52,268 nucleotides of DNA from Candidatus Bathyarchaeota archaeon (GTDB lineage Archaea > Thermoproteota > Bathyarchaeia > RBG-16-48-13 > GCA-020355125), in assembly GCA_026015035.1 (NCBI GenBank), contig JAOZHB010000021.1, positions 1 to 52,268 of the forward strand, in the 5' to 3' direction. Made by a program: the position numbers and the translations under genes. Below are positions 31,569 through 32,666 of the stretch, piece by piece; position 1 is the stretch's first letter, and every line of letters begins with the position of its first letter. The notes under the pieces were generated by a model. The model ran no database searches, was not told where the DNA came from, and saw only the letters and a program-made list of their open reading frames with translations.

Positions 31569-31941
31569 CAAAGTACTGCACACAACATTATGGCATAATC
31601 TAGAGTCGCCAGTTCCCGAATTTTCCATACCGATAGCAATTTCTAGCTAGGTATTATTGACACCATTATCGTTTTACAGGTCCTGCTATGCCTATTACCC
31701 CAGAACCCTTTCAAATAACCACACGACGTTTCTATTCTGGATGAGGAACTGAAACATAGGATACGCATGTTAAATTCTGTTGGTACGGTGGGACAAGACT
31801 GACTAATTATAAACATATTACAATCATATTTGCCAAAGATAATCATAGAGCATGATAAATCGACAGTCTATAATAATAATTAGTAAGCAACCCCCACCAA
31901 AAAATTCCACCATTATTCTAAACAAGCTACTGGTAACATGG

Positions 31942-32014
31942 AGCCGGGGACCGGATTTGAACCGGTATAAAGTCGGTCTGCAGCCGACCGCCTCAACCAC
32001 TCAGCCACCCCGGC
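31942..32014 (-). tRNA. tRNA-Cys (GCA)
   Basis: On the minus strand the 73 bases fold as a normal tRNA: acceptor GCCGGGG/CCCCGGC, discriminator T, anticodon stem GTCGG/CCGAC around loop CTGCAGA (anticodon GCA), and T arm ACCGG-TTCAAAT-CCGGT. U73 and GCA are the accepted identity elements for cysteine. CCA is not encoded. No intron. Confidence 0.93.
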
Positions 32015-32218: not shown

Positions 32219-32392
32219 GTAGGAAATGGTTATTCTACTGCCACCAGGTACAGAAGCGTCTTCACGCAGTGTACACATCCACGTCTAAAAAGGAATATTG
32301 TAGATTCAGCCTCGTACGTCAAAGCTAAGATAAAAAGATAAAAAATCCTTGAAGGTGCTTATACTCTTTTGAAAAACTTCTTGGATGAGAAA

Positions 32393-32400
32393 CAATATAA
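32393..32400 (+). promoter_or_regulatory. TATA element for tRNA-His
   Basis: CAATATAA lies about 29 bases before the first base of the mature tRNA-His, the usual archaeal TATA-box distance for a tRNA. Confidence 0.45.
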
Positions 32401-32428
32401 GATTGATGTGGTTTTTCAAAGGACGTGT

Positions 32429-32558
32429 GGCCGCTGTAACGTAGAGGAAAGTAGAAGCTTTCCGCGGAATCTGGCAGCGTACTGGCCTGACGAAGACTTC
32501 CCTTCGAAGCTTCGGGCTAATGGAGCCAGGAGGTGGGGTTCAAATCCCCACAGCGGCC
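32429..32558 (+). tRNA. tRNA-His (GTG) with two introns, one splitting the anticodon
   Basis: The ends pair as an 8-bp acceptor including G-1:C73 (GGCCGCTG/CAGCGGCC), which is specific to tRNA-His, with T arm TGGGG-TTCAAAT-CCCCA. Removing 32448-32474 (27 nt, D loop; boundary ambiguous by two bases) and 32490-32520 (31 nt) leaves 72 nt: D stem ACGT/GCGT with loop AGAGGCA, anticodon stem CTGGC/GCCAG and loop CTGTGGA, anticodon GTG. The exon junction falls between G34 and T35. The second intron contains CGAAG/CTTCG, leaving a TGA bulge that fits bulge-helix-bulge cutting. If only a canonical 37/38 intron were removed the anticodon would read GAC (Val), but C73 and G-1 argue against it. Confidence 0.8.
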
Positions 32559-32666
32559 CTCAGACAATAACCAACGATTAAGCAGTTTAACACATCATCG
32601 ACGGAGTTTATTCCTTTTTCTCAAGTCTTATAACCCTATCAGGTAATAGGATATATGATGTTTTAG

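Follow-up and report, generated by a model that had tools for sequence, protein, structure and literature searches.

A tRNA-His(GUG) gene with two non-canonical bulge-helix-bulge (BHB) introns was identified in the genome of an uncultured archaeon of the class Bathyarchaeia. One intron lies in the D loop (position 15/16) and the other between G34 and T35, i.e., inside the anticodon triplet itself. The transcript would be spliced by an alpha-beta EndA and RtcB, a reading predicted from sequence to which we assign a probability of about 95%. As originally predicted, two introns interrupt this tRNA-His and one of them cuts the anticodon, which is supported by orthologues, by BHB structures at both sites, and by covarying pairing within the introns. 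The gene is a well-supported example of the known archaeal non-canonical tRNA introns, and is notable for its anticodon-splitting site and for the dense series of intron presence and absence found in this one tRNA.

Host genome and gene structure

The window (the whole stretch of DNA that was analysed, 52,268 nt) is contig 46 of a metagenome-assembled genome (MAG) of 2.06 Mb in 146 contigs (88% complete, 7% contaminated), whose host belongs to the Bathyarchaeia and not to the Thermoproteales. The tRNA-His gene spans 130 nt (32429-32558, forward strand; Table 1), and a split or permuted tRNA was ruled out, as all exons stand in order within these 130 nt. Read 5' to 3', the gene consists of G-1, GCCGCTG, TA, ACGT, and AG, followed by intron 1; TCTGGCA, GCGT, A, CTGGC, and CTG, followed by intron 2; and TGGA, GCCAG, GAGG, TGGGG, TTCAAAT, CCCCA, CAGCGGC, and C. 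After removal of both introns, the joined exons form a molecule of 74 nt (G-1 to C73) with the G-1:C73 pair, a 7-bp acceptor, and GTG in the 7-nt loop CTGTGGA; its minimum-energy fold is the cloverleaf and ARAGORN calls it tRNA-His(gtg). The gene is orthologous to contiguous tRNA-His genes of relatives. The 130-nt gene, the 8-bp acceptor including G-1:C73, and the T arm of the original prediction were thereby borne out, and its mature length of 72 nt had to be corrected to 74 nt.

In unspliced form, the gene was missed by ARAGORN and Rfam, whose only tRNA in the window was tRNA-Cys; ARAGORN made no call on the unspliced gene or, when introns were allowed, an incorrect tRNA-Gly call. The tRNA-Cys(GCA) gene is intronless and lies on the opposite strand (31939-32014, reverse), approximately 415 bp upstream of tRNA-His. 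CCA is not encoded after exon 3 (CTC at 32559-32561), and most other host tRNA genes encode CCA directly after the discriminator. The promoter-like box upstream of the gene is kept in orthologues from the same order, as a GAAAyATTATAAG-like sequence at equal spacing.

Table 1. Coordinates of the tRNA-His gene, its introns, and the predicted BHB elements in the window
Feature	Positions	Strand	Description	Basis
Promoter-like box	32389..32401	+	GAAACAATATAAG, BRE/TATA-like, about 28-40 nt upstream of G-1	
Exon 1	32429..32444	+	G-1, acceptor 5' strand, T8 A9, D stem 5' strand, A14 G15	Alignment to intronless orthologues
Intron 1	32445..32469	+	25 nt, D loop, position 15/16	Absent in orthologues, e.g., L050/L098, L051, L107; relaxed BHB
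Exon 2	32470..32489	+	D loop remainder, D stem 3' strand, 26, anticodon stem 5' strand, C32 T33 G34	
Intron 2	32490..32520	+	31 nt, position 34/35, within anticodon GTG	Precise absence in orthologues and BHB
Exon 3	32521..32558	+	T35 G36 to C73 (anticodon 3' part, T arm, acceptor 3' strand, discriminator C73)	
BHB-1 central helix	32439..32442 with 32464..32467	+	ACGT with GCGG, 3 pairs and terminal A.G	
BHB-1 5' bulge	32443..32445	+	AG/A, predicted cut after G15	
BHB-1 3' bulge	32468..32470	+	AA/T, exon resumes at T16	
BHB-2 central helix	32484..32487 with 32515..32518	+	GGCC (29-32) with GGCT, 4/4 pairs	
BHB-2 5' bulge	32488..32490	+	TG/A, predicted cut between G34 and the intron	
BHB-2 inner helix	32491..32495 with 32510..32514	+	CGAAG with CTTCG, 5/5 pairs	
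BHB-2 3' bulge	32519..32521	+	AA/T, exon resumes at T35	

Exon boundaries

The positions of both introns were read from orthologous genes with and without them. Within the same family, two genomes (G001, G006) carry both introns and two (G003, G004) carry intron 1 only, with CTGTGGA uninterrupted; the match of G004 to the query ends at base 61 and restarts at base 93, i.e., it leaves out exactly intron 2. A 31-nt insertion had been predicted exactly between G34 (32489) and T35 (32521) of the loop CTGTGGA, and orthologues agree to the base, with precisely 32490-32520 being absent from G003, G004, G018, and G021. Conversely, G023, G060, and G061 possess the 34/35 intron alone, their D loop being uninterrupted (AGCTTGGTTA), and G073, G191, and G193 have neither intron. 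As the flanking letters differ, the intron junctions are free of slippage ambiguity. Within the genus, the locus shows 96% identity (E 1.9e-55); this conservation, together with orthologues that precisely lack the introns, shows that it did not arise by chance.

For the D loop, an insertion of 27 nt had been proposed; its presence was upheld, but orthologues and BHB geometry give 25 nt. That both introns are of the BHB type and intron 1 nevertheless comprises 27 nt, leaving a 7-nt D loop, is very unlikely: although ARAGORN still called His after 27-nt removals, intronless orthologues have a 9-nt D loop of the AGYYTGGYA type, with which the retained D loop (AGTCTGGCA) agrees, and the BHB geometry fits the 15/16 cut in 25/25 distinct introns. 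All 27-nt removals were rejected, as the resulting 7-nt D loop is unlike that of any orthologue.

BHB structure and covariation

BHB motifs were evaluated under the rule that the central helix contains four exon bases and that the 5' bulge consists of two exon bases and one intron base. Under this rule, every 34/35, 15/16, and 29/30 intron forms a BHB, and the geometry fits at both sites of the host gene. BHB-1 has three of four central pairs, five of five inner pairs (inner helix GGAAAG/CTTTCC), and no outer helix; its terminal central position forms an A-T pair in L044, L124, L126, and L130, and all four central pairs are present in some relatives. The outer helix of BHB-2 is weak, with only C-G and T.G beside an A.A mismatch (HBh' type). 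Given the absent and the weak outer helix, respectively, both motifs are of the relaxed kind. The unconstrained minimum free energy fold contains BHB-1 and not BHB-2, which costs 4.5 kcal/mol when forced. When every potential BHB site of the gene was scored, 34/35 tied for first place with another pair of cuts, and geometry alone was therefore not used as proof.

Pairing was compared across genomes without regard to kinship, and helix types differ between families. On this basis, the 20 distinct 34/35 introns averaged 3.85/4 central and 4.9/5 inner pairs (shuffled introns: 1.4 and 1.7), every one of them having at least three central and at least four inner pairs. When the 3' halves of the 34/35 inner helix were swapped between genomes, pairing fell to 3.3 pairs and none of 5000 swaps reached the observed value; likewise, the 25 distinct 15/16 introns averaged 3.16/4 central and 4.32/5 inner pairs, with 0/5000 swaps as good. 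The intronic inner helix thus covaries, and at 34/35 takes forms such as CGAAG/CTTCG (host), AAGGC/GCCTT, AAGAC/GTCTT, AGGGT/ACCCT, and CCTTA/AAAGG.

We give very little credence to the gene being a degenerate tRNA-His pseudogene with insertions whose working copy lies in the unassembled part of the genome. Such a copy would fit a MAG that is fragmented and 88% complete, from which a second tRNA-His could have escaped assembly, and a gene that is invisible to ARAGORN and Rfam as long as it is unspliced. However, the exons are conserved and fully paired, the same introns recur with compensatory changes both elsewhere in the family and in seven additional families, and the promoter-like box is conserved. 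A search of this MAG by DNA similarity and with a pattern for the tRNA-His 3' half, as suggested alongside the original prediction, also found no second tRNA-His. The other weak own-genome matches that were read (contigs C49, C79, and C25) were rejected as another tRNA, an apparently protein-coding sequence, and a tRNA-like gene, respectively.

The original prediction had rightly warned that a canonical 37/38 intron would mislead, since ARAGORN returns tRNA-Val(gac) both when intron 1 alone is taken out and an intron is permitted at 37/38, and for the 74-mer obtained by removing intron 1 and 32493-32523; that this anticodon-loop intron is real and yields tRNA-Val(GAC), either as the sole product or as a second splice product beside tRNA-His, has next to no probability, because central pairing of bases 32-35 with the intron 3' end drops to 2/4 at 37/38 vs 4/4 at 34/35 and no BHB is formed, orthologues without the intron all read CTGTGGA, the letters after G34 vary in relatives (GAC, GAA, GAG, GTC), G-1:C73 is specific to tRNA-His, and the host has separate tRNA-Val calls (tac in L003; gac in L008, itself with an intron).

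Splicing enzymes and proposed pathway

Two EndA genes were found in the host (contigs C38 and C61; PF01974, approximately 190 aa each), as well as an RtcB gene on contig C117 (E 1.3e-173). The C38 protein is of the catalytic type and retains Tyr, His, and Lys (within YERGPGIDHSPYLV and SVRKKFI); its nearest PDB entries are 3p1z (best) and 3ajv (E 1.9e-43), while the C61 protein is a second subunit without the catalytic His. The two genes provide the catalytic (alpha) and structural (beta) subunits of a heterotetrameric EndA of relaxed specificity, with a predicted (alpha-beta)2 assembly. It is this heterotetrameric form of the enzyme that tolerates diverse BHB motifs (PMC7714728, PMC4090602).

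For the reading with introns at 15/16 and 34/35, the following pathway is proposed. Once the gene is transcribed, the 3' end of each intron would mimic the exon strand that later pairs with the upstream exon, GCGG standing in for the D stem and GGCT for the anticodon stem. This mimicry would create a 4-bp central helix flanked by a 3-nt bulge on each strand, and alpha-beta EndA would cleave each bulge between nucleotides 2 and 3, releasing intron 1 from between G15 and T16 and intron 2 from between G34 and T35. RtcB would then ligate the exons to the 74-nt tRNA-His, so that the anticodon would become contiguous only after splicing. The two cuts would probably be independent of order.

Of the 20 host tRNA genes that score above the Rfam cut-off, at least 12 exceed the length of an intron-free gene, and intron-rich tRNAs are thus the rule in this genome. 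Several other host tRNA genes (L018 on contig C35, L015, L019, L014) have long or multiple introns which ARAGORN cannot place or probably misplaces.

Distribution in Bathyarchaeia and Thermoproteota

Among 257 Bathyarchaeia genomes, 129 contained matches to the 3'-half pattern, almost all of which were tRNA-His genes; further genes were added by similarity, and about 100 loci were read. Among these loci, the 34/35 intron was present in 24 genomes from eight families (f1, f4, f5, f14, f18, f19, f21, f22) and the 15/16 intron in ten families. An anticodon-stem intron at 29/30 was found in f8, f13, and f26 (L051, L053, L054, L125-L129, L131, L135), and no locus among the approximately 100 combined it with the 34/35 intron. 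T-loop introns at 59/60 occur in f21, f19, and f4, with one in f7, and variable-region introns in G032 and G063. Three introns per gene were found at 15/16, 34/35, and 59/60 (L088, G009:C1:83100-83172; L102, G062), and at 15/16, 34/35, and the variable region (L223, G063). The genes read from the large families f10, f12, f20, and f24 were mostly intronless. Two further tRNA-His genes had an apparent canonical intron at or near 37/38 (L226, G155:C8) and a T-stem insertion following query base 63 (L216, G156:C42), respectively.

A strict 34/35 pattern was run on 398 Thermoproteota genomes, as a lower bound, since it misses genes with an additional variable- or T-region intron (e.g., G032, G036). 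True cases were confined to three Bathyarchaeia (the host, G023, G028), with 0/323 among the sampled Thermoproteota outside the class; the remaining matches were rejected, as they had a contiguous anticodon (D-loop coincidences) or, once, were a chance match outside Bathyarchaeia. A pattern for the contiguous CTGTGGA matched in 198 of the 398 genomes. By these sequence patterns, the anticodon-splitting intron is uncommon across the phylum, in keeping with the original prediction, but recurrent within Bathyarchaeia.

Relation to known tRNA introns

Non-canonical and multiple introns of archaeal tRNAs, with as many as three in one gene, are well documented for Thermoproteales, Caldiarchaeum, Nitrososphaeria, and Asgard archaea (PMC8450103, PMC3293823, PMC11291895); for those of the BHB type, the reviews PMC4090602 and PMC8450103 name Thermoproteales and other Crenarchaeota, Nitrososphaeria/Caldiarchaeum, and Nanoarchaeota. 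The host introns resemble these in being short, in that such introns occur anywhere in the tRNA, in their BHB or relaxed BHB structure, and in the alpha-beta EndA and RtcB, here predicted from the genes. They differ in host lineage and in position: the list in the text of PMC4090602 includes 20/21, 22/23, 25/26, 29/30, 30/31, 45/46, 53/54, 56/57, and 59/60, and the positions 15/16 and 34/35 are absent from it. As that list ends on "etc.", novelty of the 34/35 position is not claimed. No publication on Bathyarchaeia tRNA introns turned up among the papers searched.

Similar multi-intron tRNAs are known from Atabeyarchaeia and Freyarchaeia, also from MAGs, where, according to PMC11291895, most tRNAs have introns, over half several, and often non-canonical ones; unlike the present host, these archaea are of the Asgard lineage. 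In Nanoarchaeum equitans, tRNA-His(GUG) is likewise assembled via a BHB by EndA (PMC3218864, PMC4090602), as predicted here, although from two genes joined in trans at 37/38, whereas the Bathyarchaeia gene would give one transcript with cis introns at 15/16 and 34/35. The canonical archaeal 37/38 intron shares the anticodon loop, BHB, and EndA with intron 2, but the cut is placed three nucleotides earlier here, inside the anticodon.

Possible role and implications

Extra fragments of the tRNA-His 3' part were observed in four Bathyarchaeia genomes without anticodon-arm introns (L240, G077:C2; L241, G035:C10; L242, G099:C1; L243, G016:C14), starting within the D arm or close to the anticodon loop and extending to the 3' end. 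One of them (L240) has an archaeal phage-integrase gene (PF00589/PF16795) approximately 100 bp away, so that tRNA-His looks like an integration site; in G095, a complete tRNA-His (L246) and another integrase gene are approximately 700 bp apart. The introns at 34/35 and 29/30 sit at the start of the segment covered by the fragments, which were found in these four genomes vs none with an anticodon-arm intron, numbers too few to weigh a protective role. It is conceivable, if improbable, that the anticodon-splitting intron, rather than being a passive remnant, is maintained because the anticodon region of tRNA-His thereby stays hidden or broken until it is spliced. If so, the intron might destroy an attachment site of archaeal integrases, or it might delay steps that depend on G34/U35, and the alternative 29/30 anticodon-stem introns of other families would serve the same end.

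Irrespective of its role, a tRNA whose anticodon is discontiguous in DNA escapes standard gene finders or is misassigned by them (ARAGORN, Rfam; tRNA-Val when 37/38 is forced), and claims of missing tRNAs for Bathyarchaeia MAGs are therefore unsafe. A single tRNA is found among close relatives of one class with no intron, with 15/16 only, 34/35 only, or 29/30 only, and with pairs and triples of introns, and such a series of snapshots of intron gain and loss is what reviews call for (PMC4033280).
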